DNA from: a virus
Strand: one strand, 5' to 3'
DNA: 35,276 bases
Virus record (IMG/VR): IMGVR_UViG_3300000553_000145
Span: 1-35,276 of that record
Shown here: one piece after another, positions 5,527 through 34,072 of the stretch
Layout: each line of letters begins with the position of its first letter
How positions within the stretch are numbered: position 1 is the first letter of the stretch
Program-made: the position numbers and the translations under genes
The notes under the pieces: model-generated
The model's input: only the letters and a program-made list of their open reading frames with translations
Databases searched by the model: none
Told to the model about the DNA's origin: nothing

Positions 5527-5537
5527 ATATATTATAT

Positions 5538-5600
5538 ATATCAATAGCACAAAAGTTTATATTATTATCATTTTAATAGCACAATACATATTATTGATAT
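5538..5600 (-). repeat. Inverted repeat ATATCAATA/TATTGATAT upstream of the endonuclease gene
   Basis: ATATCAATA at 5538-5546 and its exact complement TATTGATAT at 5592-5600 flank a 45-base spacer holding two near-identical CAATAGCACAA / TAATAGCACAA words. The gene-proximal arm ends 12 bases from the ATG at 5526. It could fold in a read-through transcript and mask the start, or be a binding site. Weak evidence alone. Confidence 0.3.
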
Positions 5601-5694: not shown

Positions 5695-6645
5695 TTAAAT
5701 AGGAATAAAATTTGTTGATTCCTTAATGTGTAAGAACTCCATTAATTTAATTTTAATTGTATCATTATCATAATCTTTATAAGTCAACCGAAACAAAGGT
5801 ATATTGTTATTTATACAATATCCAGTCTTTAATTTGTCTCGCAATTGTAAAATTTTAAAACCTTCTTCACCACCCCAACACATCACAGGACGAAAATGTT
5901 GTTCACCATCAAATTCAATACAAATATTCAACTCCGTTAAATAAAAATCAAAATATAATAGTGATTTATGTCTAAGATCACTAAAAGATTTCTGAGGTTT
6001 ATATTTAATGTCATATTGCTCTAAAAAACTTGTAACAATTAACTCACCTTTGGATTCTTTACAAACTGGACAACCAGCTTTAGCATGAATGTGATCACCA
6101 GGTTTTTGAAAAAATGAACCGTGCTTAGGACAAATTATTTCTACCTTAGTATATGAGTTTATATATGTAACTTTACTATAATCATATTTATTATTATGAA
6201 CTTTATTTGCCTTTTCAATAAATTTATCTAATCCTATTACTGTGAATTTTTTAGTTTTTTCTATTCCACATTTTTTACAACCAGACTTCTTAAAAAGATG
6301 TTCCATTGGCAACTCTTCAAATATACCATGAATTGGACAAATTATCTTAACCTTATTTAAATAATTTTTATAATCAGTTAGAGAATAATCATAAAAATTA
6401 TTATGAACAATATTAGCTTGTTTAACGAATTTATCAGTTGTTTTAGATTTTTTTCTTTTAGAACATTCAAAACAATCATTTCCTTTCAAATGATTTCTTG
6501 GTGTTTGTTTAAATTCTTTATGTATAGGACAAATTATGTTAACTTTTGTATCTAAATTAATATAATTAACCAAAGAATAATCAAATTTATTATTATGGAC
6601 TTTATTTGCTCTAATTACAAATTCATTTTTTGATAATTTTTTCAT
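5695..6645 (-). CDS. Free-standing homing-endonuclease-like protein with HGxF/CxxC repeats and a C-terminal PD-(D/E)XK nuclease
   Basis: 316 residues from the ATG at 6645 (MKKLSKNEFVIRANKVHNNK). The frame is open 11 codons further up, but that part would be translated from the gp23 terminator hairpin, so the internal ATG is preferred. It has three tandem units of about 60 residues: KANKVHNNKYDYSKVTY, then IICPKHGSFFQKPGDHI, then GCPVC, as in DUF723-type zinc-binding repeats. The C-terminal nuclease core has YFDFYLTELNICIEFDGEQH, matching a Vsr/DUF559-like PD-(D/E)XK fold. It lies directly after gp23 in the same orientation, separated by gp23's terminator, and is followed by a second copy of the gp23 tail and terminator. 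Its own TATATATAAT element sits just before the ATG. Probably a mobile homing gene targeting the gp23 region. Confidence 0.75.
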   Translation of the reverse strand: MKKLSKNEFVIRANKVHNNKFDYSLVNYINLDTKVNIICPIHKEFKQTPRNHLKGNDCFECSKRKKSKTTDKFVKQANIVHNNFYDYSLTDYKNYLNKVKIICPIHGIFEELPMEHLFKKSGCKKCGIEKTKKFTVIGLDKFIEKANKVHNNKYDYSKVTYINSYTKVEIICPKHGSFFQKPGDHIHAKAGCPVCKESKGELIVTSFLEQYDIKYKPQKSFSDLRHKSLLYFDFYLTELNICIEFDGEQHFRPVMCWGGEEGFKILQLRDKLKTGYCINNNIPLFRLTYKDYDNDTIKIKLMEFLHIKESTNFIPI

Positions 6646-6656
6646 ATTATATATAT

Positions 6657-6745
6657 TAAATAAAAAAAAGCCAAACAAAAGTTTGGCTTTTTTATTAAGA
6701 ATCCTGTAAAGGTTAAATTAAAACACCCATTGAATCAGTTACTTT
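6657..6745. repeat. Copy B of the direct repeat (genuine gp23 3' end and terminator)
   Basis: Covers the last ten codons and stop of gp23 and the terminator hairpin. The matching copy A is at 5606-5693, on the far side of the intervening endonuclease gene. Confidence 0.9.
6670..6687 (-). terminator. Intrinsic terminator of gp23 (copy B)
   Basis: Stem GCCAAAC / GTTTGGC with loop AAAA and T/A runs on both sides, 26 bases after the gp23 stop codon. It also lies just upstream of the endonuclease start at 6645. Confidence 0.85.
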
Positions 6746-8557
6746 GATAGTCATGAATTGCTTCCATGGAAAAAAACCAATATCAGCAACTGCATATCTT
6801 GAACGAATTAACATTCTTGGTGCCCATGTTGCTTCGGAAATTAATTGAATAGATTGTGCCATAAGGTAAGGTACGAATACTAAACCTGGTTGTTCAACGC
6901 TATTTTTTCTTCCTAAGAAAATTCTATTGTCATCCCATCTTTGATAAGGGTCAACATAGATACTAATTTGACCAACATTACCCATTGGAAATAATTGACC
7001 ATTTGAGTTTAAGTTAGCTTTAACTGGGTTAAGTGTATAACCAGCAACATCTTGAATAACAGATGCTAAGTTACCGTTTGTAACAAGGTATTGAGCTGGG
7101 CCAACACGACCTTCAGTTGCAATAAAGTTAGAAGCGTTATTGATCTTAGCAATAAGTTTTCTTTGCATTGAGTGGGTTGTTTCACCACCTGGGGTTGCAG
7201 CACCTGCTACTAAATAAGCATCAACATTATAGTCAAACTTAGATACGCCAGCGGTTTGTGGAGTTGTCCAAGCGATTCTATTTTTGTCAGCAAGTGCAGT
7301 AATTGCTGCGATAATTTGTTTAGAAATGGTTTGGGTAAGTTCATTAACCAAAACTGATTCTAATTTTTGAATAATATCCATTCCGGTTGCGGCTTTGATA
7401 TCTTCAATTTGAGTTCTCTTCAATGATGAACTAATTTCAACATCACCTACTTGAATTGTCTTTGTGAAGATGTCTGGTCCAATAACGTTTGGATACATTC
7501 TTTCGTCTTCGTCACGGGTCATTGGCTTGTTAAGATACCAACCTGCTGAGAAGCCAGGGATATGATCTTCTAACAAAGAAACTAAATTAATAGTTACCCC
7601 TGCTAAAGTAATATAAGTTGGAGCACCAGCACCTGCTGCATTTGCAATCTGCATGATAACACCACTATTTAACATATCTACGATTGAGGATGATGCTGTT
7701 GGGAAAGTATTTCTATCATCAATAAAATTCCAACCACCATTGTTAGCACCAGTGTTAAATTGACGGAAAATTCTAAACATTGGATAACCATTGATACGGC
7801 TCCAACCTAAGAATTCCATCCAACCTTCTTTAGCAACAACTGTTGAAGAAACACCTGCTAATGCTGGGTTAAAAGCCAAAATCAAAGTTGAGGAAGCTGC
7901 AGAACTACCTTTAACAAAATAATCTGATAAAGTTAAAACTGAAGTTTGACTTTGTAATGGTTGTGAGTTATTTACAAGTGTTGTACCACCTGATAAATGA
8001 ACATACATTTGTTGAGTTAAACCTCCAATTTTTTCATATGTAGGAGTACCATTAGCATCAACTGTGTTTGCCATAGCAACCTTTAATGCTGCATTTAAAG
8101 CAGTGAGACTTGTCATGTTCAATGAGAACATAATAGGTCTTTCATCTTTCAATGTTGAATCAGCTACGTTATCATATTTGAAATCTACAAATAACAAATC
8201 AACTTTTGGTGAAGAAGCAGGCTTTACAGCTACTAAATCAAGACCAATAGTTTGTGCAGCGATCTTCATTGAAACTGGAAGTAAATTCTGACCAATGTCA
8301 CCTGAACCGATGCCACCAGCTGTACCCATTCCATAATCACCCCATACTAAACCAGGAGTAGTTGAAGGCAATGCAGGTTGTACTGCACCCATACCGTTCA
8401 TTGTGCCCATTGTTGAATAAGCAACATTTTCATTCAAAGAATGCATTTCTGCATACTCAGCCATCCATTTCTGTCTGTAAGGATCGGTAACACCTAAATT
8501 CTCCAAAACAGGTTTCCATTTGTTGATGGATTTTTGTTCGTTTACTAATAAATTCAT
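6713..8557 (-). CDS. 23: Major capsid protein, T4 gp23 family
   Basis: 614 residues; T4 gp23 is about 520. The N-terminal INKWKPVLE (11-19) matches T4 gp23 (LNKWKPLLE). Residues 91-105 (NLLPVSMKIAAQTIG) followed by LDLVAVKP correspond to the T4 IPNLIAFDICGVQPM segment. The C-terminal part includes MKRTQ-like and QPGLVFVPYLMAQSIQLISE segments and ends RYAVADIGFFPWKQFMTIKV, typical of this family. A possible gp21 cleavage site, L-N-E, lies at residues 41-43 (HSLNENVAY), after a charged N-terminal part like T4's removable propeptide. The T4 order 21-(22)-23 is kept, with the protease gene directly upstream. A TATATAAG element lies 47-54 bases upstream and a strong terminator follows. The base use is less AT-rich than in neighbouring hypothetical genes, as expected for a highly expressed gene. 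Confidence 0.95.
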   Translation of the reverse strand: MNLLVNEQKSINKWKPVLENLGVTDPYRQKWMAEYAEMHSLNENVAYSTMGTMNGMGAVQPALPSTTPGLVWGDYGMGTAGGIGSGDIGQNLLPVSMKIAAQTIGLDLVAVKPASSPKVDLLFVDFKYDNVADSTLKDERPIMFSLNMTSLTALNAALKVAMANTVDANGTPTYEKIGGLTQQMYVHLSGGTTLVNNSQPLQSQTSVLTLSDYFVKGSSAASSTLILAFNPALAGVSSTVVAKEGWMEFLGWSRINGYPMFRIFRQFNTGANNGGWNFIDDRNTFPTASSSIVDMLNSGVIMQIANAAGAGAPTYITLAGVTINLVSLLEDHIPGFSAGWYLNKPMTRDEDERMYPNVIGPDIFTKTIQVGDVEISSSLKRTQIEDIKAATGMDIIQKLESVLVNELTQTISKQIIAAITALADKNRIAWTTPQTAGVSKFDYNVDAYLVAGAATPGGETTHSMQRKLIAKINNASNFIATEGRVGPAQYLVTNGNLASVIQDVAGYTLNPVKANLNSNGQLFPMGNVGQISIYVDPYQRWDDNRIFLGRKNSVEQPGLVFVPYLMAQSIQLISEATWAPRMLIRSRYAVADIGFFPWKQFMTIKVTDSMGVLI

Positions 8558-11163: not shown

Positions 11164-12798
11164 ATGATTCTTGATGAAAAACTAGAAATAAAAGTAAATC
11201 CTTCTAACATAAATCATTATAAAATTTTTTATAGCAACATAAGTGTTGGAGATTTAATTTTAGTTGATGTGGAACAATTAACGAAAGGTTCCAAATATGA
11301 AATAAAAATGAGATGTGATAAATGTTATAATGAACTTTATATACCGTATAATTTTTTATACAAAACCGATTCATTACATAATTTTATTTGTAAAAAATGT
11401 AAAAGAAAAAACACCAATCAAAAAAAATATGGAGTAGATAACGTTTTTCAATTAGAAAATATTAAAAATAAATCAAAAGAAACAATAAAAAATCAATACG
11501 GAGTAGATAATGTTTCTCAATCAGATAAAATTAAAAAGAAAAAAATAAACACATTTTTAAAAAAATATGGAGTAGAATGGGGATTATCTTCAGATATAAT
11601 TAAAGAAAAATCAAAAAAAACAATTAACAAAAAATATAATGTTGATAATATATCTAAATTAGACAACATCAAAAGGAAAAAGGAAGAAACATGTTTTAAA
11701 AATCATGGTGTAGATTATATATCTCAGCATGAAAATTTCAAAAAAAATTTAGACAAATTAATTTTAAAAAAATTACAGATAAAATATAAAAATTTATTAG
11801 ATATATCTGGTGACAATTTTACATTTTTTTGTGAAAAATGCGGAAAAGAATTTGAAATTTATAAAAAATCATTTTATACTAGGCATAATCTAAATATTGG
11901 TATATGCACTTTTTGTAATCCAATAGGTTCAGTACATTCGTCTGGTTCAGAAACAATTTTATATGAATTTATTTCAAATAATATAGATAAAGTTTGTATC
12001 AGAAATGTCAAAAATATAATTCATCCTTATGAATTAGATATTTATATTCCAGAATTAAAATTATCATTTGAATTTAATGGTTTATTTTGGCACAACGAGA
12101 ATAATGTTCATAAAAATTATCATTTATATAAAACTGAAAAATGTGAAAAATTAGGAATACAATTAGTACATATTTGGGAAGATGAATGGTTATTTAAACA
12201 AGAAATAATTAAATCTATGATTTTAAATAAATTAAATAAAACTCCTAATAAAATATATGCTAGAAAATGTGAAATTAAAGAAGTATTAGATAATAATTTA
12301 ATTAGAGATTTTTTAAATCAAAATCATATACAAGGTTTTATTGGAACAAAAGTAAAATTAGGTTTATTTTATGAAAACAAATTAGTTTCTTTAATGACTT
12401 TTGGAAATCGTAGAGTTGCAATGGGTAAAAAATCAACTGAAGAATATGAATTATTAAGATTTTGTAATAAATTGAATACTAATGTTATAGGTGGTGCAAG
12501 TAAATTATTCAAATATTTCATAAATAATTATAATCCTAAGAAAATTACGACTTGTGTGGATAGATCGTTCAGTCAGGGTAAATTGTACGAAATTTTAGGA
12601 TTTAGATTACAAAGTAAGACTCAACCAAATTATTATTATATTAAAAATAAAATTAGACAGCACAGATTTAATTTTAGAAAAGATATTTTAGTTAAAGAAG
12701 GATATGATTCAACAAAAACTGAACATGAAATAATGTTAGAAAGAAAAATTTCCAGAATTTATGATTCTGGAAATTTAAAATTTATATTTAATACTTGA
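11164..12798 (+). CDS. Hef-like homing endonuclease with zinc ribbons, KYGV repeats, PD-(D/E)XK core and GNAT-like tail
   Basis: 544 residues starting MILDEKLEIKV, the same opening as three relatives in this window. A CxxC...CxxC ribbon (MRCDKCYNEL...CKKCKRK) is followed by about five repeats of the type KKYGVDNVFQLENIKNKSKE. A second ribbon follows (FFCEKCGKEF...ICTFCNPIGS). The nuclease core at about 290-312 reads ELDIYIPELKLSFEFNGLFW. The C-terminal domain (about 380-500) has KLGLFYENKLVSLMTFGNRR, YELLRFCNKLN, GGASKLFKYF and KITTCVDRSFSQGKLYEILG, a GNAT-like fold common in such phage endonucleases. Closely similar to the 13847-15421 product. It is transcribed against the surrounding late genes, starts 137 bases from the divergent gp21 start and ends 2 bases before the convergent gene's stop. 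A TTATATATACAAT element sits right before its ATG. Confidence 0.8.
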   Translation: MILDEKLEIKVNPSNINHYKIFYSNISVGDLILVDVEQLTKGSKYEIKMRCDKCYNELYIPYNFLYKTDSLHNFICKKCKRKNTNQKKYGVDNVFQLENIKNKSKETIKNQYGVDNVSQSDKIKKKKINTFLKKYGVEWGLSSDIIKEKSKKTINKKYNVDNISKLDNIKRKKEETCFKNHGVDYISQHENFKKNLDKLILKKLQIKYKNLLDISGDNFTFFCEKCGKEFEIYKKSFYTRHNLNIGICTFCNPIGSVHSSGSETILYEFISNNIDKVCIRNVKNIIHPYELDIYIPELKLSFEFNGLFWHNENNVHKNYHLYKTEKCEKLGIQLVHIWEDEWLFKQEIIKSMILNKLNKTPNKIYARKCEIKEVLDNNLIRDFLNQNHIQGFIGTKVKLGLFYENKLVSLMTFGNRRVAMGKKSTEEYELLRFCNKLNTNVIGGASKLFKYFINNYNPKKITTCVDRSFSQGKLYEILGFRLQSKTQPNYYYIKNKIRQHRFNFRKDILVKEGYDSTKTEHEIMLERKISRIYDSGNLKFIFNT

Positions 12799-13323: not shown

Positions 13324-13749
13324 TCACAAGTTATATTTTTTAGCATCTATATAATCTTGATATTTTTCATATTCTACCATATAATGATCGTTAATTATAT
13401 TATCAATAAATTTATAAATCATATTTTCTTCGTTATCTTTTAATATAATTTCTCTATAATCTTTTGTTCTTTTCAATAAATCTGAGACAGCATCATCAAT
13501 ATCATCACCGTTATCAATCTGTAAAATATCATATAGTTCTAAAGGACTATTACCTTGCCCACTAGGATAAAAATATTCATCTATAACATCTTCAGCAAAT
13601 TTCTTTATTAATTTATCAATTATAATATCTTTATTTTTAATATTTTCATCTTTAAAAAAATGTTTTAATGATTTTTTAAATTTTTTTATTAAATGATCTG
13701 GAAAATCTATTTCAATTCTTTTTTCAAAAATTTTAAAATTAGTTATCAT
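13324..13749 (-). CDS. Hypothetical protein with F-x-x-F N-terminal motif and C-terminal AKKYNL
   Basis: 141 residues, not recognised. It starts MITNFKIFEKRIEIDFPDHL, which fits loosely the short N-terminal motif seen on several small proteins of this window. The body is acidic and probably helical (LIKKFKKSLKHFFKDENIKN, DDIDDAVSDLLKRTKDYREI). It ends YIDAKKYNL, the same ending as two genes near 32.8 kb. It sits between portal and protease genes with a TATATAA element just upstream. Possibly a virion core component; the function is unknown. Confidence 0.65.
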   Translation of the reverse strand: MITNFKIFEKRIEIDFPDHLIKKFKKSLKHFFKDENIKNKDIIIDKLIKKFAEDVIDEYFYPSGQGNSPLELYDILQIDNGDDIDDAVSDLLKRTKDYREIILKDNEENMIYKFIDNIINDHYMVEYEKYQDYIDAKKYNL

Positions 13750-13846: not shown

Positions 13847-15421
13847 ATGATAATAACAGAAACAATAAAATTAAAAATGAACAGTAAAACGATATCACAT
13901 TATATAGAATTGGGTTATAATGTAAATGTAAATGAAATTTACGATATAAAGGTTAGTGATTTAACAAAAGGAAGTAAAGTAGAAATAGTTGCAAAATGTG
14001 ATATATGCGGCAAAGAAAAAAATGTACCATATAGAGAATATTGTAGAAACACTTCAAAATATGATATTTTTTGTTGCTCAAATAAATGTTCAACCATTAA
14101 GAATAAAAAAACATCATTAGAAAAATATGGAGTAGATCATTTCTCCAAGACAAATGAGTTCATAGAAAAAATGGAATCAACAAATTTTAATAAATTTGGA
14201 TTTGCTTACTATGCACAAACAAAAGAATATAAAGAAATTATAAAAAATAAAAATCTTGATTATAACACAAGAATAATAAAACAAAAAGAAACTTGTTTAG
14301 AAAAATATGGAACTGAGAATTATCACCAATCGGAAGAGTATAAATCTAAAAAAAATAATATAATTAATAAATACAAAACTACAGTAACAAAAAAATTATT
14401 AAAAAAATTTTCAAATTTAATTTCAACTGATAACAAGAATTATAAATTTTTATGTGAAAAGGGACATGAATTTGAATTATCTAGAGAATTATTAAAAAAT
14501 AGGTCTAAATTAACTACTAAAATATGTACAATTTGTAATCCAATAGGTTCCTCCAAATCTGGATATGAAATACAATTATTTGAATTTATATCAAATAATA
14601 TTTCAACAGAAATATTAAAAAATAACAGAACATTTTTAGATAATAAATATGAACTGGACATTTATTTGCCTGAATTGAAATTGGCATTTGAATTTAATGG
14701 TTTATACTGGCATAATGAATTAAATAAAGAAAATAATTATCATTTAGACAAAACTGAATTATGTAAATGTAAAGGTATACAATTAATACACATATGGGAA
14801 GATGATTGGACTTATAAACAAGAAATAATTAAATCTATTATTTTGAATAAATTAAATAAAACACAAAATAAAATTTATGTCAGAAAATGTGAAATTAAAG
14901 AAATATCTGATAATAAAATGGTTAATAAATTTTTGGATGAAAATCATTTACAAGGAAGTATAAATTCATCAATTAAAATTGGATTATTTTTTAATAATGA
15001 ACTATATTCATTAATGACATTTGGAAAACAAAGAATTTCATTAGGACAAAAAAGTATAAAACACACATATGAATTATTAAGATTTTGTAACAAATTAAAT
15101 ACCAATATTGTTGGTGGTGCTTCAAAACTTTTTAATTATTTTCTCAATGTTTATAAACCTGAAAAAATAATTACTTATGCAGATAGAAGTCATTCAAATG
15201 GTGACCTATATTATAAATTAAAATTTAATTTTATTTATAACACAATTCCAAATTATTATTATATTATAGATGGTATAAGACAAAATAGATTCAGTTTCAG
15301 AAAAGATATACTAATTTTAGAAGGATATGATCCATATAAAACTGAACATCAAATAATGACAGAAAGAGGTTATTATAGGATATACGATTCAGGATCAATG
15401 AAATTTGAAATGAACCCTTAA
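13847..15421 (+). CDS. Hef-like homing endonuclease, paralogue of the 11164-12798 gene
   Basis: 524 residues, starting MIITETIKLKMNSKTISHYI. Zinc ribbon (AKCDICGKEKNVPY...CCSNKC), about three KYGV-type repeats (LEKYGVDHFSKTNEFIEKME), a second ribbon (KICTICNPIGSSKSGYEIQL), nuclease core (YELDIYLPELKLAFEFNGLY) and a C-terminal GNAT-like domain (YELLRFCNKLNTNIVGGASK, IITYADRSHSNGDLYYKLKF). Similarity to the 11164 gene is strong from the second ribbon to the end and weaker in the repeats, as expected if the repeats set DNA specificity. It is on the plus strand and its stop overlaps the convergent portal stop by 3 bases. A TTATATATAAT element lies upstream of the ATG. It probably homes near the portal gene; the target is not visible. 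Confidence 0.8.
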   Translation: MIITETIKLKMNSKTISHYIELGYNVNVNEIYDIKVSDLTKGSKVEIVAKCDICGKEKNVPYREYCRNTSKYDIFCCSNKCSTIKNKKTSLEKYGVDHFSKTNEFIEKMESTNFNKFGFAYYAQTKEYKEIIKNKNLDYNTRIIKQKETCLEKYGTENYHQSEEYKSKKNNIINKYKTTVTKKLLKKFSNLISTDNKNYKFLCEKGHEFELSRELLKNRSKLTTKICTICNPIGSSKSGYEIQLFEFISNNISTEILKNNRTFLDNKYELDIYLPELKLAFEFNGLYWHNELNKENNYHLDKTELCKCKGIQLIHIWEDDWTYKQEIIKSIILNKLNKTQNKIYVRKCEIKEISDNKMVNKFLDENHLQGSINSSIKIGLFFNNELYSLMTFGKQRISLGQKSIKHTYELLRFCNKLNTNIVGGASKLFNYFLNVYKPEKIITYADRSHSNGDLYYKLKFNFIYNTIPNYYYIIDGIRQNRFSFRKDILILEGYDPYKTEHQIMTERGYYRIYDSGSMKFEMNP

Positions 15422-19341: not shown

Positions 19342-20373
19342 TTAATTATTTTTATAAAAATTTTTATCAATCCATTTTCTTTTTCTCGCAAATTCATATA
19401 CATTATGATTTTCTCTTGCAAATTCGGTTACATTCTTATATTTTTCAGCTTCATTTTTACATTCATCTTTGGTCCAAGTTTTTCTTAATGGTATCATATG
19501 TAAACAAATTTCATCTAGAAATTTATTCTTTTGTGCAAATTGCCACAATTTATGATTATTTATTTTAAATTCGTTTCTACTATTATATTTCAATGCTTCT
19601 TTTTTGCAATCTTCTATTGTTACATAATTATGTAAACATATCATATGGGAACATATATCATCTAGCCAGTCATTTTTTCTAGCTATATCCCAAGAATTAT
19701 GATTATTTTTTGCAAATTCGCCTCTATGTTTGTATTTAAGTGCCTCTTTTCTACATTCATCTTTAGTCCATTTTCTGTGAATTATGGTCATATGTGAACA
19801 TATTTCATCCAACCATTTATTTTTACGTGCTGAATTAGATGCTGAGTGATTATTTTTTTCAAATTCGGATCTTGTATTATATTTCGATGCCTCTTTTCTA
19901 CATTCCTCTTTATTCCATTTTATTTTTGAAGAACCAATTCCACCAGTCTTAGCAATATTTAAACACTTGAATCCATTTTCTTCTGATTTACATTTCCAAT
20001 ATTCTTCTTGTATTTTAGCATCATTCACAGGAATATAATCAGTTAATTTTTCAATAATAATAGGTTTAATTTTTGTTTTTTCTATATATGAATGTACTGT
20101 TCCTTTTTTATTTAGATGTTCACATATTCTTCTATCAAAATTGCTGGTTAATCCAACATAACAAACGTTATTTGAAAATATAATTCTATATATCAGTCTC
20201 TTATATTCATTACCTATTGGTAACATATGAGAACATATATCATCAATCCACTTATTTCTTACTGCTGCTTGGTAAGCGCCATAAGATAATTTTTTAAAAT
20301 CTTTTTTGTAATTGTACTTTAGTGCTTCTTCTTTACACTCATCTATCATCCACTTGGAATTTGCAGAATTCAT
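19342..20373 (-). CDS. GIY-YIG homing endonuclease with repeated DNA-binding modules
   Basis: 343 residues. The nuclease part is YRIIFSNNVCYVGLTSNFDR followed by RICEHL (a GIY-YIG variant: Y-R-I...C-Y-V-G, Arg in the next helix) and a later EEYW with the catalytic-type Glu, about residues 60-130. Five copies of a roughly 45-residue module surround it: one before (KWMIDECKEEALKYNYKKDF... WIDDICSHM) and four after (WTKDECRKEALKYKHRGEFA, NNHNSWDIARKNDWLDDICS). These modules probably bind DNA. The last module lacks the end of the pattern (WIDKNFYKNN). It sits 4 bases upstream of gp55 on the same strand, which makes gp55 the likely neighbourhood target. Confidence 0.85.
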   Translation of the reverse strand: MNSANSKWMIDECKEEALKYNYKKDFKKLSYGAYQAAVRNKWIDDICSHMLPIGNEYKRLIYRIIFSNNVCYVGLTSNFDRRICEHLNKKGTVHSYIEKTKIKPIIIEKLTDYIPVNDAKIQEEYWKCKSEENGFKCLNIAKTGGIGSSKIKWNKEECRKEASKYNTRSEFEKNNHSASNSARKNKWLDEICSHMTIIHRKWTKDECRKEALKYKHRGEFAKNNHNSWDIARKNDWLDDICSHMICLHNYVTIEDCKKEALKYNSRNEFKINNHKLWQFAQKNKFLDEICLHMIPLRKTWTKDECKNEAEKYKNVTEFARENHNVYEFARKRKWIDKNFYKNN

Positions 20374-20667: not shown

Positions 20668-21954
20668 TTATAAAATCATTCTTTTTGCTTTAACCTTATC
20701 AGCATTAACTGCCTTTAAATTTTCATATAATTCGTGTTTAGAAATTAGCAAATCATTAAATGTTTTCTTTAAATTTGTATCACTATTCACTAATTCTTCA
20801 TGTTCTTTTAACAATGCTAAGCCTTCATCAATTTGTTTGATACCTTCTTTAATTTCCATTTCTTTGTCTTCTAAGGATCTAACATGTTTCATTTCTTTTG
20901 AAAGTTTATTGTCTAAAAATTTCGTTAAATCATAATCCAATTCTTTTTGAACATCATTAATTAAATCGTTTGCTGAATTATATTCATAGAAAGCTGTACC
21001 TGTTCTAGCGTCTTTATTATAAATATACATTTTATCTTTATAATTAATAACATAACATTCTAAATGGGGATATAAAGCATTTTCTACCTTTAAAGCAATA
21101 TCTAAATCTACAAATTTGTCAATATTTTGAGCTGCTGTTTGTGATAAAACATAAAAATCTTTCTTTAACCAAGGAATAATTTTTGAATTGAATAAATTTT
21201 CTAAAGTTGTTTCTTTATCTAATTTTTCTTCATTTAAGAAAACTTCTTTGTCATTTTTTGTTGAAATACTTAAAATTAAATTTTCGTCTAGTCTAAAAGA
21301 AATCATATCATCTTTAACGTCACCTATGGTCATAACTTTTTCCAAAATTCTAAATTCTCTAATTTTATCTACATCTTTAATGTGATTTTCTAAAAGCGTT
21401 TGTTTAACTTCGTCATTATTAATTAAAAACCAACGATCTTTCATAAAAACTAAATTGCCATCTTCTGTTTTTTCTACTAACGTAAACACCTTTGAGCCTT
21501 TACCTGAATTCATTAAATTTTGTCTTTGAATAGGATTATTCATATAACCATTCAAAAATAATTTTACTTCTGGAATCCAATCATGAATAACCAATTCATT
21601 AACAATTGAGGTCATTTTTGAATCATTATCTTGAATATTAATAATATTAAGAATAGAATTCAAAGCTGGACGGTACATTTGTCCATAATTTTTTCTTTCA
21701 ATTTTTTTGTAAAGATCCTTTAAATTATAATTTATTGGATCACTTTTAATTTCGTTTTCTAATCCTTCAATTAATTTTACAACTTTAACATCCCAAGAAA
21801 GTGGTGTAAGTTTTTCTTTAATTGCGCCAACAAGTTCTTTTTCTGAAAAGTTATCATAACCATTGATAAATTTCTCAACAATTACATTCAATTCATAATC
21901 CTCAATTAATAAAGCACTTTTAAAATTAAATAAGTCATACTTTAAATTTTTCAT
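20668..21954 (-). CDS. Hypothetical protein, 428 residues, probably virion or core associated
   Basis: Not recognised. The N-terminal half is mixed alpha/beta (VEKFINGYDNFSEKELVGAI, KLTPLSWDVKVVKLIEGLEN). The central part has a beta-rich stretch (SKVFTLVEKTEDGNLVFMKD, DMISFRLDENLILSISTKND). The C-terminal ~100 residues are strongly helical and charged (LEDKEMEIKEGIKQIDEGLA, DLLISKHELYENLKAVNADK), typical of a coiled coil. It lies in the late block between gp55/GIY-YIG and the gp15-like gene, bounded by its own terminator downstream and by the gp15 terminator upstream, so it is probably a single transcription unit. A TTTATATATAA element lies about 62-73 bases upstream of the start. Function unknown. 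Confidence 0.75.
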   Translation of the reverse strand: MKNLKYDLFNFKSALLIEDYELNVIVEKFINGYDNFSEKELVGAIKEKLTPLSWDVKVVKLIEGLENEIKSDPINYNLKDLYKKIERKNYGQMYRPALNSILNIINIQDNDSKMTSIVNELVIHDWIPEVKLFLNGYMNNPIQRQNLMNSGKGSKVFTLVEKTEDGNLVFMKDRWFLINNDEVKQTLLENHIKDVDKIREFRILEKVMTIGDVKDDMISFRLDENLILSISTKNDKEVFLNEEKLDKETTLENLFNSKIIPWLKKDFYVLSQTAAQNIDKFVDLDIALKVENALYPHLECYVINYKDKMYIYNKDARTGTAFYEYNSANDLINDVQKELDYDLTKFLDNKLSKEMKHVRSLEDKEMEIKEGIKQIDEGLALLKEHEELVNSDTNLKKTFNDLLISKHELYENLKAVNADKVKAKRMIL

Positions 21955-22964: not shown

Positions 22965-23255
22965 ATGGAACAAAAAAGACAATTTATTATTATTTTAAGT
23001 AGTAAAGACCAATCTCGTTTTTATTTACAAAAAATAAAAAAAAATAGTTTAGGATATTATTTTATGAGAACAATAAATCCTAAAAAAGCTAAAATTTGGA
23101 AAATTAAAAAAAAATGTGAAACTGCAATAGATAAAATTGAAAAATTATTAGATCCAACTCAAACACATTTAAAAAAATATAAACTAGAAGTAGTAGAAAT
23201 AACTGACAATCAAACATTGAGACAATTAAAATTAAAAAAATTAAATAAAAAATGA
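22965..23255 (+). CDS. Hypothetical small basic protein
   Basis: 96 residues, very rich in Lys: MEQKRQFIIILSSKDQSRFY at the start, KAKIWKIKKKCETAIDKIEK in the middle, RQLKLKKLNKK at the end. Not recognised. It is the first of a plus-strand group leading to the gp44 gene and its stop overlaps the next start (ATGA), so the two are translationally coupled. Confidence 0.65.
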   Translation: MEQKRQFIIILSSKDQSRFYLQKIKKNSLGYYFMRTINPKKAKIWKIKKKCETAIDKIEKLLDPTQTHLKKYKLEVVEITDNQTLRQLKLKKLNKK

Positions 23256-23503
23256 TAAAAATTGGAGATAAAGTTCGGATGAGTAAAAAAAAGATTATAG
23301 GTATCGCAGGCACATATATACCAGAGTGGTACTGTAATGAAATATTTTCCATAAAAAATATACGTCTCTGTACAGGATCTTCAACAATCGTAACATTAGA
23401 CAGAAATTTACCAAATAGACATGGAAATGAAATATATATTGGATATTTAAAATCTTTACGAATACAAAGAAAAAAGAAACTTTTAAAATTAAATTCCCTA
23501 TAA
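23252..23503 (+). CDS. Hypothetical small protein
   Basis: 83 residues: MIKIGDKVRMSKKKIIGIAG at the start; the motif 'IKIGDKVR' followed by VTLDRNLPNRHGNEIYIGYL suggests a small SH3-like beta barrel. It starts inside the stop of the previous gene (ATGA). A small hairpin (TCCCTA/TAGGGA, 23495-23512) spans its stop, and a clear terminator follows at 23548. Function unknown. Confidence 0.6.
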   Translation: MIKIGDKVRMSKKKIIGIAGTYIPEWYCNEIFSIKNIRLCTGSSTIVTLDRNLPNRHGNEIYIGYLKSLRIQRKKKLLKLNSL

Positions 23504-23634: not shown

Positions 23635-24603
23635 ATGGCTGAATTATTAACAAATGAGATTTTTTGGTATAAATACCAACCACAAAGTTTAAAAACTATT
23701 ATCCTTCTTCCAAGAATAAGAGAACTCATCAAAGATGGATTAAAAATGAATGTTATATTTCATAGTGAAACCGCAGGTACAGGTAAAACAACTCTTGCAA
23801 AAATTTTATGTAAAAATACAGATAATATTCAATATAACGCATCAGATGATACAAGTGTTAATATTTTGAGAGATCAATTAAAAAAACATTGTAAAACCCT
23901 AAATCCATTTATGCCAAAAAATTCATTAAAAACAATATTTCTTGATGAATTCGATGGTGTATCTATTGAATATCAAAAGGCAATGAAAGGATTTTCAGAC
24001 ACTTATCATCATGTTAGATTTATTTTAACAACAAATTACATTCAAAATATTGATGAGAAAATTATTTCAAGATTTACCAAAGTTGATTTTGATCCAAAAA
24101 CTAAAGAAGAAACGGAATATCTTCAAACTATGTACTTTAAATATCTTAAAGCAATTGCTACGAAATTATCTATTACACAACCAGAATTTAAAATTACTAA
24201 TGATGAGATAAAAAAACTTATAATGCTAAGTTTTCCAGACTTAAGAAGTGCAGTACAGAAATTACAAGAAGTTTATATTGTTGGTACAGAGCAATTTAAA
24301 AATATTAATTCAAATTATGATGATATTTTTAAATTTGTTATGGATGGCAAAAATAATGTTGAAGAAAATTATGTTTATGTTATGAATAATTTTCAAGATT
24401 ATCCATTAGAATTAATGAAAGCATTAGGTCGTCCTTTATTTAGTAAATTAATGAACATTGATCATCCGAACTTAATTAAACAAGGTGCAACTTTAATTAG
24501 TTTACAAAAATCTTATAATGAAAAATATAATGATACAATAGATCCTCTTATTCATTTAATATCATATATTACTGATATAAAAGAAACATTAAAAAAACAA
24601 TAA
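23635..24603 (+). CDS. 44: Clamp loader large subunit (AAA+ ATPase), T4 gp44 family
   Basis: 322 residues (T4 gp44: 319). YKYQPQSLKTIILLPRIREL is the family opening. The Walker A is SETAGTGKTTLAK (T4: SPSPGTGKTTVAK). Walker B is TIFLDEFDGV. Sensor 1 is FILTTNYIQNIDEKIISRF, with SRF where most family members have SRC. The C-terminal collar domain follows (PDLRSAVQKLQEVYIVGTEQ). With gp62 it opens and loads the sliding clamp gp45 at replication forks. In T4, gp62 follows directly; here the next gene is a capsid-protein fragment, so gp62 must be elsewhere or missing. Preceded by a terminator and an AT-rich promoter-like stretch. Confidence 0.93.
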   Translation: MAELLTNEIFWYKYQPQSLKTIILLPRIRELIKDGLKMNVIFHSETAGTGKTTLAKILCKNTDNIQYNASDDTSVNILRDQLKKHCKTLNPFMPKNSLKTIFLDEFDGVSIEYQKAMKGFSDTYHHVRFILTTNYIQNIDEKIISRFTKVDFDPKTKEETEYLQTMYFKYLKAIATKLSITQPEFKITNDEIKKLIMLSFPDLRSAVQKLQEVYIVGTEQFKNINSNYDDIFKFVMDGKNNVEENYVYVMNNFQDYPLELMKALGRPLFSKLMNIDHPNLIKQGATLISLQKSYNEKYNDTIDPLIHLISYITDIKETLKKQ

Positions 24604-24609
24604 AAATGA

Positions 24610-25002
24610 GTGAATAAATGGGCTTCATTATTTGATACAGAATTAAGCGGAAAAACTGATTGGTTATTACAATATACCAATAATTTAAATAACTCAGGAA
24701 CTAATTTTTATAAATCAATTTCTTCCGGTTATACCGGACAAACAATATCCTCCACCAGTTTCGGTAATCAAAATTTACTTCCAGTTTCTATAAAAATAGC
24801 AGCACAAACTATTGGTATGAATCTAGTTGCAGTAAAACCTATGAGTGCACCTATCGGTAGTATATTTGGAATGGATTTTGCATATGAAACACCAGAAGAA
24901 GGAAGGAAAAAGAAACGAAAAGAAAGATTAAAAAAATTAAATAAAATTCTTAGGAAAGAGAAATTAAAATATATAGATGAAATTCTTCAAAAAATAATAT
25001 AA
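24610..25002 (+). pseudogene. Truncated major-capsid-protein-like fragment (gp23/gp24 paralogue remnant)
   Basis: 130 codons from a GTG at 24610; TGA precedes it directly in frame, and an ATG four bases earlier (24606) gives only three codons in another frame, so the original start may have been lost by a frameshift. Residues 1-9 (MNKWASLFD) parallel gp23 NKWKPVLE. Residues 54-93 align without gaps with gp23 residues 90-129 at 26 of 40 positions (QNLLPVSIKIAAQTIG, then LVAVKPMSAP). The DNA is also close there (19 of 20 bases over the QNLLPVS codons). After AYETPEEG the match stops and a short Lys-rich tail follows (RKKKRKERLKKLNKILRKEK). It sits just after gp44, far from gp23. It may be a decayed duplicate, a remnant of a vertex protein (gp24 type), or a short functional N-terminal variant. 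Confidence 0.7.
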
Positions 25003-25006
25003 TAAA

Positions 25007-25291
25007 ATGAATGACATTAAATTCTTTAAAGAAAAACAAATTAATGATTATATTTACAACAATATAAATTTAACACACACAGGAACAAATGATATTAAAT
25101 TCGGATTAAAAATGATGCTCGGTGAAGAGCCAGCAGTCAAATTTAATTATAAACCTAGTATGAAAGTTAATGAAACAACTGGAAAAGTTGAAAGATTAGA
25201 AAATGAATTAGAATCTATCGAAATCTACTATACTTATATCGGTTCAGATAACAATCAACATGCTGGGCATATGAAATATATTGTAAACTAA
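25007..25291 (+). CDS. Hypothetical small protein
   Basis: 94 residues: MNDIKFFKEKQINDYIYNNI at the start, then GTNDIKFGLKMMLGEEPAVK and ELESIEIYYTYIGSDNNQHA, mixed alpha then beta. Not recognised. It starts 4 bases after the capsid-fragment gene and ends 1 base before the convergent gene's stop. It could have been the partner of an intact predecessor of the capsid-like fragment; no direct evidence. Confidence 0.6.
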   Translation: MNDIKFFKEKQINDYIYNNINLTHTGTNDIKFGLKMMLGEEPAVKFNYKPSMKVNETTGKVERLENELESIEIYYTYIGSDNNQHAGHMKYIVN

Positions 25292-26005: not shown

Positions 26006-27121
26006 TTATTTTATTTTATATATTATTTTTAGGAAGTCATCATAATTTTTATCAATTATATATTGAAAATTAAAACCTTCATTTAATGTTGCTTTTTCTT
26101 TTTCTATACATCTATCTTTATGTAATTCATATATGTATGTTGATTTAACTTCAACTATTAAATTATATTTCTTCAAATAAAAATCTGAAAAGTAAAATTT
26201 TTCTTTGTCTAAATACGTATATTTGATGGTCTTGCCTCTTTTTACTTCTAAATTTAATTTTTGACACAAATCTAAAAAATCTTTCTCATATGTGCCTTGA
26301 TAATTAATACCTATTTCATGCATTTTCATTTTAGGAAATTGCTTCTTATGAATTTCAAAATTTTGTGATGGAAAATCAACACCATATCTTTCATTACAAG
26401 TTATTTTAGATTTAGTTTTATATTCTTCTGTTGAGAGATATGAAGATTTACCATATCTTTTTAAACAGGTTTTAGCAACTCTATTTTGGAAATCCTTTGA
26501 TTGTGAGCAATGATCAAATCCATATTCTTTTTTATTATTTTTATTTCTTTTTATTAAAACATCCTTAGACTGTGTAGGCCACTCTACATCATTATTTTCA
26601 AAGCAAGTTTGTTTAGATTTTTCGCGATTTGTAAAATTTTCATCACCATATTTTTCTTTTTTTGTCTTTTTTGCAATATCTTTTATTTTTTCTGATTGAA
26701 AAACATTTTCAGTGCCCCAATTTTTTAAATTTGTCTCCTTTTTCTTATCTTTGATTTCTTTTGATTGTGATACATTTTCAACACCATATTTTTTTAAATT
26801 TGTTTGCTTAGATTTTTCTCTATTTGTAAAATTTTCATCACCATATTTCTGTAATTTGGTTTTTTTAGATTTTATAGTTTTACATTTTTCACAAGAATAA
26901 AAACCACCTCTTTTTACATTATTCATATATGAAATATGTTGTATAGAATTAATTGAACCACAAATATCACATTGCACATCTATTAATAATTTATAACCTT
27001 GAATTATATCCTTAGTATATATTTCCGCAAATTCTTTTAATTCAACATCATAACCAATATCATTGTAATAATTTATATTTGTTCTATTTATTTTTACTTT
27101 GATTTTTTCTGTTAGTATCAT
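26006..27121 (-). CDS. Homing-endonuclease-like protein: zinc ribbon, eight KYG repeats, PD-(D/E)XK nuclease
   Basis: 371 residues from MILTEKIKVKINRTNINYYN, matching the starts of the 5526, 11164 and 13847 proteins. Zinc ribbon VQCDICGSINSIQHISYMNN with later SCEKCKTIKS. Eight repeat units follow (LKKYGVENVSQSKEIKDKKK, KEKYGDENFTNREKSKQTC, LKRYGKSSYLSTEEYKTKSK, ...), some near-identical to each other (ENFTNREKSKQT occurs twice). The nuclease core at about residues 310-335 is FYFSDFYLKKYNLIVEVKST. It lacks the C-terminal GNAT-like domain of its relatives. It lies between the small coupled pair and the divergent RNase H gene. Mobile in origin; the target is unknown. Confidence 0.8.
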   Translation of the reverse strand: MILTEKIKVKINRTNINYYNDIGYDVELKEFAEIYTKDIIQGYKLLIDVQCDICGSINSIQHISYMNNVKRGGFYSCEKCKTIKSKKTKLQKYGDENFTNREKSKQTNLKKYGVENVSQSKEIKDKKKETNLKNWGTENVFQSEKIKDIAKKTKKEKYGDENFTNREKSKQTCFENNDVEWPTQSKDVLIKRNKNNKKEYGFDHCSQSKDFQNRVAKTCLKRYGKSSYLSTEEYKTKSKITCNERYGVDFPSQNFEIHKKQFPKMKMHEIGINYQGTYEKDFLDLCQKLNLEVKRGKTIKYTYLDKEKFYFSDFYLKKYNLIVEVKSTYIYELHKDRCIEKEKATLNEGFNFQYIIDKNYDDFLKIIYKIK

Positions 27122-28596: not shown

Positions 28597-29046
28597 TTAC
28601 AAATTATATTTATTCATTGAAGTGTATAGTTCTATTTCCTCTTGTGTTAATTTTACTACGCCCATATATTTATATCCTCTTCTATATCTAAGATCATCAA
28701 AACCTTTAAGTCTTTTGTCATGTTGCCATTCCATCCAAGACCATTCATCACTCATCCATGTATTTTTATCTTCTGATTTGAAATTTTCATTATGCCAAAT
28801 TTCTATAAAATGACTTTTACCTCGAAGCAGTAATAGAGGTCGACGGACAGCAATTAATCCTCGTCTTTTACATATTTGAATATCTAAAAAGATATCTTTT
28901 GGTGCACCAAGTTTATCAAGAGATGCTTTTATGATATCTAAATTATCAGCCTTTATTTTCCAATAATATCTACCTGATATTGGTTGTATATTTTTATCAA
29001 CACTTGCATCTCTTTCTTTTTGAAAATCTCTTTCAAATTGTTGCAT
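28597..29046 (-). CDS. Hypothetical protein ending in NKYNL
   Basis: 149 residues: MQQFERDFQKERDASVDKNI, SGRYYWKIKADNLDIIKASL, DIQICKRRGLIAVRRPLLLL, EWSWMEWQHDKRLKGF, and KLTQEEIELYTSMNKYNL at the end. Rich in Trp and Arg; not recognised. Its last codons AAATATAATTTG lie directly before the next gene's start and match the sequence context of the 'KKYNL' genes near 32.8 kb. Its own start overlaps no other gene; a terminator of the upstream gene lies 35 bases before it. Confidence 0.6.
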   Translation of the reverse strand: MQQFERDFQKERDASVDKNIQPISGRYYWKIKADNLDIIKASLDKLGAPKDIFLDIQICKRRGLIAVRRPLLLLRGKSHFIEIWHNENFKSEDKNTWMSDEWSWMEWQHDKRLKGFDDLRYRRGYKYMGVVKLTQEEIELYTSMNKYNL

Positions 29047-31917: not shown

Positions 31918-32541
31918 TTATCTGTTTTTATAATCTTCTATTCTTATTGTATGAAAATTATGGGCATTTAATAATCTAGGTATCCAAAATTTTTCATATT
32001 CATTAAATCTCACACATGCTGTTTTTATACTGGGATCTCGACCAACATTAAACCAAACCATTTCGTTTTTTGTATATTCTTTATCAATAAATATAAAATC
32101 AGTATCTTCATCATCATCAGAGTAGTGGACTATTTTAGCATCTAATATGTTTTTAATAATGTTATGTATTTGGGATTTATCGAAATCTGGATAATTTTTT
32201 TCTATAAAATAATACAATTCTATCCAATTTATAAGAACCACAGGTCCCCTTTCACTTACATCAATAGTTTTATTTAGATTTTTATTAGCATTTTTACTCC
32301 ACTCTTTTTTATCATCTTCACCTTTTTGTTTCCATTTATTAATTAAATTCTTTGTTTTCTCATCTTTCACAGGAACTTCTTTCACAGTAGATTTTTCAAT
32401 TTTTTGCTTATCCAAATTGACATTATGTGGATCATTTAAATAATCTCTTTCTTTTTTTGATAAATTTTCCAAACCTTTATCAATTAATCCATCAATTATT
32501 TCCTGATCGAATTTTTCATTAAATTCCTTATATTTTTTCAT
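31918..32541 (-). CDS. Hypothetical protein with capsid-targeting-like N-terminus
   Basis: 207 residues. Begins MKKYKEFNEKFDQEIIDGLI (YKEF motif). Residues 30-100 are charged and probably disordered or helical (KKERDYLNDPHNVNLDKQKI, KEVPVKDEKTKNLINKWKQK). The C-terminal half looks globular (PVVLINWIELYYFIEKNYPD, DTDFIFIDKEYTKNEMVWFN, ending RLLNAHNFHTIRIEDYKNR). Not recognised. Its ATG overlaps the stop of the previous gene (ATGA), directly after the AAAAAATATAACTT sequence that encodes that gene's KKYNL end. Confidence 0.65.
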   Translation of the reverse strand: MKKYKEFNEKFDQEIIDGLIDKGLENLSKKERDYLNDPHNVNLDKQKIEKSTVKEVPVKDEKTKNLINKWKQKGEDDKKEWSKNANKNLNKTIDVSERGPVVLINWIELYYFIEKNYPDFDKSQIHNIIKNILDAKIVHYSDDDEDTDFIFIDKEYTKNEMVWFNVGRDPSIKTACVRFNEYEKFWIPRLLNAHNFHTIRIEDYKNR

Positions 32542-32795
32542 AAGTTATATTTTTTTATATCTGTCGCCAATTCTGTGTCACCGGTTTCTCTGTATGCTTC
32601 CAACCAATCTTTTAATTCATTTTTTTCTTTATCTTGATAAGTCCAACTTTGTTTGAGTACTTTCCATAAAATCAGAAAATTCGTAACCATATTTATCAAA
32701 TCAAATTCTTTTTGTGATATAGTTATTATCTCATCATCATTTGGATAGCCAATTAAAGAATATGTTTTTTTAAAATCCTCATAAATTTTTATCAT
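32538..32795 (-). CDS. Small hypothetical protein ending in KKYNL
   Basis: 85 residues: MIKIYEDFKKTYSLIGYPND at the start (YEDF motif), ISQKEFDLINMVTNFLILWK in the middle, helical, and TGDTELATDIKKYNL at the end. Starts and ends with ATGA overlaps to its neighbours, so three genes are translationally coupled here. Not recognised. Confidence 0.65.
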   Translation of the reverse strand: MIKIYEDFKKTYSLIGYPNDDEIITISQKEFDLINMVTNFLILWKVLKQSWTYQDKEKNELKDWLEAYRETGDTELATDIKKYNL

Positions 32796-33043
32796 AAGTT
32801 ATATTTTTTTGCATCTAGGTATAATTCTGGATTACTTGTGTAAATTACTAATTTTTCAAAATCTTTTTGATTTAACACATAAGAGCCCATCAACGATTTA
32901 AGTTTTATCGTTTTAACTTTAACAGTACCAAACTTACCAGTACCAACAACAACTATTTCGAAGTCTATAATTTTAGATTCAATTAAACCTTCACAAAAAT
33001 TTTCATTTTCAGGCAATTTCATAAAATCATTTATATAACTCAA
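32792..33043 (-). CDS. Small hypothetical protein ending in AKKYNL
   Basis: 83 residues if read from a TTG at 33043 (reads L/MSYINDFMKLPENENFCEGL); an ATG at 33022 gives 76 residues. The AG-rich stretch before the TTG and the wish to keep the gap to the upstream gene small favour the longer form slightly; the start is open. The body is beta-rich (IIDFEIVVVGTGKFGTVKVK, TIKLKSLMGSYVLNQKDFEK) and it ends LYLDAKKYNL. Its TGA overlaps the next ATG. Not recognised. Confidence 0.6.
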   Translation of the reverse strand: MSYINDFMKLPENENFCEGLIESKIIDFEIVVVGTGKFGTVKVKTIKLKSLMGSYVLNQKDFEKLVIYTSNPELYLDAKKYNL

Positions 33044-33358: not shown

Positions 33359-34072
33359 ATGACAAAAAGAGAATGGGTAAAAATAGATAGATTATCTAAA
33401 AGAATTAAAGCAATTGAATATTTAGGTGGGAAATGTGAAAAGTGTGGTGAAACAAATATTTTTTCCTTAGAATTTCATCATAAAAATAGTTCAGAAAAAG
33501 ATGCTACAATTTGGGCGATACAAGATTGTAGATGGTCAATCATTGAAAAAGAAATTCAAAAATGTATTTTGTTATGTGGAAATTGCCATGGTAAAATACA
33601 TTCCAATGAAAATGACAGTAAATTGAAAAACAATAAAAAAATATATTTAGAATATAAGGGTATCTCTGGATGTGAAAAATGTGGGTATAATGAATGTAAT
33701 TCATCTTTAGATTTTCATCATTTAGATAAAAACGAAAAAGATTTTATGATAGGTGAAATTTATATCACTTTTAATAGTATAGAAGATCTATCTATTAAAA
33801 TTGCCGAAGAATTAAATAAATGTGTAGTCATCTGTAAAAATTGTCACAAAAAAGAACACTCCGATATTGATTTTTTTGAAAAATTCAAAATTGAAATTAT
33901 TAAAAAATCAAAAACAAAAAAAGAAGTTATGAAAAAAATAGACAGAAATAAGGTTAATGAGTTATATACAAGCGGAACAAAGCAAATAGAAATTGCAAAA
34001 TATTTTGGTGCGACAAAGGGCACAATTTCAAATATTATAAAAGAATTGAAATTAAAAAAGCCAACTAAATAG
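33359..34072 (+). CDS. Double HNH endonuclease with C-terminal helix-turn-helix
   Basis: 237 residues with two tandem HNH units. First: GGKCEKCGETNIFSLEFHHK (CxxC, His-His) and CILLCGNCHGKIHS (CxxC-H...H), residues about 22-84. Second: ISGCEKCGYNECNSSLDFHH and KCVVICKNCHKKEHS, about 100-165. A resolvase-type HTH follows (NELYTSGTKQIEIAKYFGAT, KGTISNIIKEL), residues about 195-233. Probably a free-standing homing endonuclease; two nuclease cores on one chain could cut both strands or one may be structural. It is convergent with the tmRNA gene 42 bases away. The start is set by the inverted repeat described separately. The stop lies inside the terminator stem. Confidence 0.85.
   Translation: MTKREWVKIDRLSKRIKAIEYLGGKCEKCGETNIFSLEFHHKNSSEKDATIWAIQDCRWSIIEKEIQKCILLCGNCHGKIHSNENDSKLKNNKKIYLEYKGISGCEKCGYNECNSSLDFHHLDKNEKDFMIGEIYITFNSIEDLSIKIAEELNKCVVICKNCHKKEHSDIDFFEKFKIEIIKKSKTKKEVMKKIDRNKVNELYTSGTKQIEIAKYFGATKGTISNIIKELKLKKPTK

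Follow-up and report, generated by a model that had tools for sequence, protein, structure and literature searches.

Phage structural proteins, the capsid protein included, rank among the main triggers of bacterial anti-phage immunity. Hosts sense capsid-type proteins, as is evident from the Gol region of the T4 major capsid protein gp23, which binds EF-Tu and switches on the Lit protease (PMC3014915), and from CapRel, which is triggered by phage capsid proteins (PMC9712102). The function of the capsid targeting sequence (CTS) has been described for the internal proteins of the T4 head (PMC9026906).

Here we describe a short gene derived from gp23 that lies beside a replication gene in a 35,276-nucleotide IMG/VR record (IMGVR_UViG_3300000553_000145). 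This whole stretch, hereafter the window, is a small part of its phage's genome, and its ORFs were called mechanically. The window's own major capsid gene encodes a full-length gp23 of 614 aa (6713-8557, minus strand), which along its whole length shares 57% identity with gp23 of the 735 kb genome LR756501 (W02); identity with gp23 of three genomes of 635-642 kb is 47-50%. The phage thus belongs with the "Mahaphage" genomes of about 634-735 kb, which are giant T4-like phages; the predicted hosts of this clade in the huge-phage survey are Bacteroidetes (PMC7162821). Literature searches returned no account of capsid-fragment genes or of the C-terminal tags described below.

A conserved, fast-evolving gene for a gp23-derived chimera

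The short gp23-like gene (24610-25002, plus strand, 130 aa) starts 6 bp after the stop codon of a gp44-type clamp loader gene (23635-24603, plus strand), its upstream neighbour throughout the clade. Downstream follows a conserved 94-aa ORF (25007-25291, plus strand; LGEEPxxxFxYxxxxxINETT) without a match in Pfam or PHROG. The gene begins with a GTG immediately 3' of an in-frame TGA, and the ATG just upstream (24606-24608, plus strand), the "dead" ATG of the preliminary description, is out of frame and opens only MSE*. Most relatives start from ATG, L202 from GTG, and G002 and L226 from TTG.

Residues 54-93 of the product align without gaps to residues 90-129 of the window's own gp23 with 26 of 40 positions identical, exactly as first reported, while shuffled fragments score 13 or less. 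The DNA is close as well, with 83 of 120 nucleotides identical in the matched stretch (29, 33 and 21 at the three codon positions). Codon choice agrees at 14 of the 26 shared residues and differs at the other 12, so the likeness to gp23 is maintained at the protein level. Within the window's own record, the fragment retrieves gp23 (E 2e-13); Pfam Gp23 (PF07068) is matched at E 2.6e-6, above the gathering score and over profile positions 4-49 of 376 only, and the PHROG 138 major head protein at E 8e-7. Pfam and PHROG thus point alike to gp23, and the supposed derivation from a capsid gene, of the gp23 type, is upheld. A DNA-level search of phage records with the fragment gave no match. At 130 aa, with a gp23 part of only about 50 aa, the product is not a full-length shell subunit of the HK97 fold. 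The early impression that the KPMSAPIG stretch is nearer to the T4 type than to the phage's own gp23 was borne out: here most family members match the capsid protein of Rhodothermus phage RM378 or of another T4-like phage at least as well as their own gp23.

An alignment of the family resolves five modules: S1, S2, a 39-aa insert, S3 and a basic tail. S1 is a start resembling the gp23 propeptide (KW...LEGL), present in many members and missing or degenerate in several (G001, L219, L226); the window ORF has the NKW motif of the propeptide that was noted initially. S2 (24769-24819, plus strand; QNLLPVSIKIAAQTIGM; family sequence LLPIAMRISAQTIG) is identical to the window's own gp23 at 15 of 17 positions. 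S3 (24823-24885, plus strand; LVAVKPMSAPIGSIFGMDFAY; family sequence LVSVQPLSAPTGQLFYMDFKY) aligns with the part of gp23 in which the T4 Gol region lies. Part of the mature shell in gp23, S2-S3 is retained by nearly all family members and aligns with T4 gp23 at about 90-131, a putative Gol-equivalent stretch. It is unbroken in the window ORF; in 14 relatives it is broken by the insert (GGWxxSKxQQLKEDRLNKLRKLxGxEPNVxLPDDExxxG), which enters at the S2/S3 junction (24820-24822, plus strand) and is absent from the window ORF and G001. Mean pairwise identity is highest in S3 (0.61) and the insert (0.60) and lowest in the linker (0.20) and tail (0.27). Searches of Pfam, PHROG, PDB sequences and Foldseek matched the insert to no known domain. 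AlphaFold models only the insert of relative L203 with confidence (pLDDT >90); in the window ORF the gp23 part has no predicted structure and the tail forms one helix (residues 96-129). This basic tail (24889-24999, plus strand) is the Lys-rich tail recognized earlier, and it contains a C-terminal tag, RxxKLxx[LI]. The gene thus encodes a chimera: a propeptide-like start, the surroundings of the Gol region of gp23, a tagged basic helix and, in most relatives, an insert placed exactly within the gp23 stretch.

To place the gene in its clade, we scanned IMG/VR with the 94-aa ORF (27 loci) and with gp44 (80 loci), some contigs appearing in both sets. In most distinct clade contigs, the slot between gp44 and the 94-aa ORF is filled by a short ORF resembling gp23, about 80-206 aa long; G005 (L223) lacks it, and in L246/L247 it is frameshifted. 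Similar genes occur away from this slot, at another locus, in LR745206 (W01; 291407-291880) and LR756502 (W04; 315773-316270), and there too a homologue of the 94-aa ORF follows shortly after. The 94-aa ORF is thus a companion of the capsid fragment at two different loci. In the pair L210/L211, dS is 0.01 for the fragment and 0 for the 94-aa ORF against 0.58 for gp44; fragment and 94-aa ORF can therefore travel as a block. Seven window ORFs (3556-5550, 5695-6678, 11164-12798, 13847-15421, 19342-20373, 26006-27121 and 33359-34072) resemble homing or HNH-type endonucleases, and several of them adjoin head genes. The only one searched, 5695-6678, matches an HNH endonuclease (PHROG 559).

Leaving out the near-identical pair L210/L211, dN/dS of the fragment between relatives is 0.18-0.61, compared with 0.05-0.16 for gp44 and the 94-aa ORF, and the excess of synonymous over non-synonymous change in the fragment is significant (p 7e-12 to 2e-2). 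The fragment is under purifying selection yet evolves faster than its neighbours. The preliminary description suggested that it may be a truncated remnant. "Truncated" holds, with about 50 aa of gp23 present, whereas "remnant" does not: relatives have this short gene at the equivalent position, mostly intact and with a similar tail. Pure decay is disfavoured by this dN/dS range and by the mostly intact copies in a conserved slot, unlike the unconstrained, scattered and disabled copies of a pseudogene. The suggested origin from a gp24-type vertex protein is not supported either, because the fragment is nearer to T4 gp23 (E 4e-4) than to T4 gp24 (E 0.43), a gp23 paralogue with the full-length fold. 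No second full-length gp23- or gp24-like protein was found in four complete relatives by a type of search that recovers gp24 in T4. The missing C-terminal part of gp23, sought across the 35-kb window, is not there; separate small ORFs with C-terminal gp23 pieces occur in G001 (33551-34012) and G002 (21007-21839). In summary, the short gene is a conserved, maintained and fast-evolving accessory gene encoding a gp23-derived chimera, and we are highly confident that this gp23-mimic gene is real and maintained.

Dispersed head-protein fragments and C-terminal tags

We compared profiles of 93 core protein families (W01-W04) with the small ORFs of eleven related genomes and contigs (E <=1e-3), a census that recognizes only well-conserved source segments. 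It returned 57 partial matches, against none with reversed ORFs. Pieces of gp23 account for 25 of the 57, where 0.9 would be expected by length (p 6e-30); other sources include the portal (7) and the prohead protease/scaffold (5). Some fragment ORFs join several pieces, at times permuted. In LR756501, ORF 48028-48549 runs through portal residues 62-90, 278-332 and then 259-285, and ORF 276342-276932 joins gp23 residues 2-99 and 346-381; permuted pieces in LR745206 (291877-292131) were found by reading the sequence. No extra gp23 piece was found in Lak-C1 (540 kb). Two further small ORFs (L210:4929-5150 and L222:4850-5053) consist of a scaffold repeat, YSEYIAENLDK, followed by an RxxKL tag, and a 70-aa ORF in G002 (L063:12053-12265) has a DNA-polymerase-like motif, YDFASLYPNQM, ahead of the tag, with a weak core-family match (E 4.5e-4).

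The tag itself was scored with a simple pattern set after inspection (R..[KR][LI]..[LI] within the last 22 residues). It occurs in 74 of 612 small ORFs of the clade, where shuffles predict 5.5, and in 128/750, 99/743 and 124/778 small ORFs of W01, W03 and W04, respectively; where enriched, it marks about 12-17% of small proteins. Large ORFs carry it at chance level (0-3 per genome or group). In the window, two unrelated small ORFs on the plus strand just upstream of gp44 bear the same tag (22965-23255, TLRQLKLKKLNKK; 23252-23503, LRIQRKKKLLKLNSL). LR756501 shows no excess of RxxKLxx[LI]; unlike the tag of its relatives, DPYGEExW ends 38 of its ORFs (L066-L102, e.g. 11314-11850, 145582-146127 and 499642-501699), some of which derive from capsid or scaffold proteins. 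The RxxKLxx[LI] tag is absent from the stretches of T4, LR756500 and Lak-C1 and from the distant T4-like contigs that were scanned (1/427); Lak-C1 recodes TAG, which makes its ORF calls imperfect.

Between W01 and W04, orthologous ORFs have the tag in common much more often than chance predicts (p 1e-15). Codons at the tags vary near the genome background and, in LR756501, freely among synonymous codons, which refutes a cause at the DNA level such as a shared promoter, ribosome-binding site or repeat; such a cause is also rejected because large proteins are tagged no more than by chance though their downstream genes would need the same signals. Head-protein fragments carry their own phage's tag more often (15/37) than other small ORFs do (444/3585; p 2e-5). 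The tag is also found on ordinary enzymes, a DNA methylase and GrpE, and is therefore a general mark rather than one specific to mimics. Borne in lineage-specific form by dozens to more than 100 small proteins per genome, such tags could reveal a megaphage protein-sorting system.

A second ending in the clade, [KN][YF]N[LIV], occurs on 67 ORFs, most of them with a start like the T4 CTS. In the window, ORFs ending KKYNL or KFNI lie at 13324-13749, 28597-29046, 32538-32795 and 32792-33043, most beginning with MKYLKxFE, like the T4 capsid targeting sequence. These ORFs possibly form a large set of head-packaged proteins.

Candidate roles of the gene product

The short gene product is probably a capsid look-alike inside the infected cell. 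We tentatively propose that it works as a decoy, a capsid mimic that occupies the partners of nascent gp23. Judging only from its position, the gene would be read with the replication genes and ahead of the late gp23. A mimic made before gp23 fits a gene that shares its strand and surroundings with replication genes, with the head genes on the opposite strand; against this timing, the gene sits at another locus in LR745206 and LR756502. An unfolded piece of gp23 would serve as a linear mimic that presumably binds, and so occupies, recognizers of nascent gp23. Candidate targets are host alarm proteins (Lit/EF-Tu, CapRel or ones of a similar kind) or folding and assembly partners. Linear mimicry suits the data better than a capsid building block because the pieces are short and sometimes permuted and because AlphaFold leaves the gp23 part unfolded. 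Insert and tag may change or redirect what the mimic binds, and mini-genes from other parts of gp23, the portal and the prohead protease/scaffold could play the same role for other exposed head segments. In favour of the proposal are also the widely filled slot, the selection on the gene, the excess of head-protein fragments, the conservation of insert and S3, and the sensing of capsid proteins by hosts. Against it, most members have their Gol-like core interrupted by the insert, possibly at the cost of binding; the tag is shared with ordinary enzymes; and the absence from G005 and the frameshift in L246/L247 mark the gene as accessory.

A broader version of the decoy proposal is more doubtful. 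It holds that a dispersed repertoire of mini-genes from the phage's own head proteins (capsid, portal, protease/scaffold), at times with permuted pieces, often lineage-tagged and with the tag read by a phage-encoded receptor, could form a peptide-mimic system against bacterial sensors of structural proteins.

The main rival, which we consider unlikely, is a head-targeted internal protein: a small, basic product would enter the prohead by means of its propeptide-like start, much as the CTS admits T4 internal proteins, and would later leave the head together with the DNA. The N-terminal KW..L segment aligned to the gp23 propeptide in many members points this way, as do the basic tail or insert, the CTS-like start of the nearest T4 parallel (gene 61.1, below) and the MKYLKxFE-like starts of many window ORFs. 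Such targeting is hard to square with a family in which the N-terminal segment is missing or degenerate in G001, L219 and L226 while S2-S3 is near-universal, and only 1 of the 74 tagged ORFs has a CTS-like start. Were this rival correct, the significance would lie in a new route for loading proteins into heads.

We regard interference with rival phages, in which a partial capsid protein poisons the head assembly of co-infecting T4-like phages, as improbable. Its chance comes from the likeness of S3, in most of the family, and of S2, in some members, to other T4-like capsid proteins (RM378, L003), which equals or exceeds that to their own gp23; moreover, the fragment sources are head-assembly proteins. 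Many pieces are nevertheless too short or too permuted for co-assembly, and self-poisoning would be expected because S2 of the window ORF is nearly identical to its own gp23.

It is very improbable that a duplicated capsid or vertex gene is decaying here and that what is left of it persists by chance. In-frame internal deletions (e.g. LR756501, 276342-276932), the GTG start next to an out-of-frame ATG and the frameshift in L246/L247 would suit it, but purifying selection, a slot conserved across many contigs, a conserved 39-aa insert and phage-specific tags on the fragments all speak against it. Least credible of all is an origin as co-converted exon pieces or donor cassettes left behind by homing endonucleases or recombination. 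The nearby endonuclease genes and the mobile block in L210/L211 might point to it, but coding constraint persists in the fragments. Moreover, gp23 is about 74-84% identical between related phages of the clade, and the fragments lie further than this from the gp23 of their own phage, so they are not converted donors.

Comparison with T4 gene 61.1 and other known systems

Several known systems share features with the short gp23-like gene. T4 alt.-1/alt.-2 (annotated as an old partial duplication) are likewise a partial copy of a virion-protein gene kept as small ORFs; unlike the fragment, they stem from a single tandem duplication, are untagged and belong to no dispersed set. The T4 internal proteins IPI-IPIII resemble the family in being small, basic and poorly conserved (PMC9026906), but they carry a CTS where most family members have gp23 sequence instead. 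The window ORF, too, has only the propeptide NKW motif and no start of the MKxYxxFxE type. The Gol region is matched by S2-S3, which align with the T4 gp23 stretch that includes it (PMC3014915); in T4 it lies within full-length gp23, whereas here it forms a separate gene and is mostly interrupted by the insert.

The nearest parallel comes from T4 itself. A search of the T4 genome with its gp23 finds gp23, gp24 and gene 61.1, a hypothetical protein of 54 aa (NP_049649; MKTFKEFIKEDMVAGDSGGNPENISIGTTSGAVVNKGPEQIPKKKKEESKEKEE) whose gene adjoins the primase gene 61 (NC_000866 18966-19130; L325:2967-3131). Residues 2-38 of 61.1 are 46% identical to gp23 residues 57-93 over 37 aa (pairwise E 6e-9), and the protein is built from a CTS-like start (MKTFKEFIKE), a segment of the gp23 arm and a C-terminus rich in Lys. 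Many T4-like phages have relatives of 61.1, and the annotation of some names a capsid domain. Gene 61.1 looks like an unnoticed parallel of the short gp23-like gene, being a small ORF beside a replication gene with a gp23 N-terminal arm segment and a Lys-rich tail. It differs in using gp23 57-93 rather than the Gol stretch, in its CTS-like start, in its lack of the insert and in its locus; the fragment has another neighbour than gene 61 and falls outside the 61.1 family. Because the gp23 segment differs, 61.1 is a parallel and not an orthologue. Together with 61.1, the conserved genes built from pieces of capsid, portal and scaffold proteins, which belong to the largest phages known, offer a directly testable candidate for counter-defence by self-mimicry.
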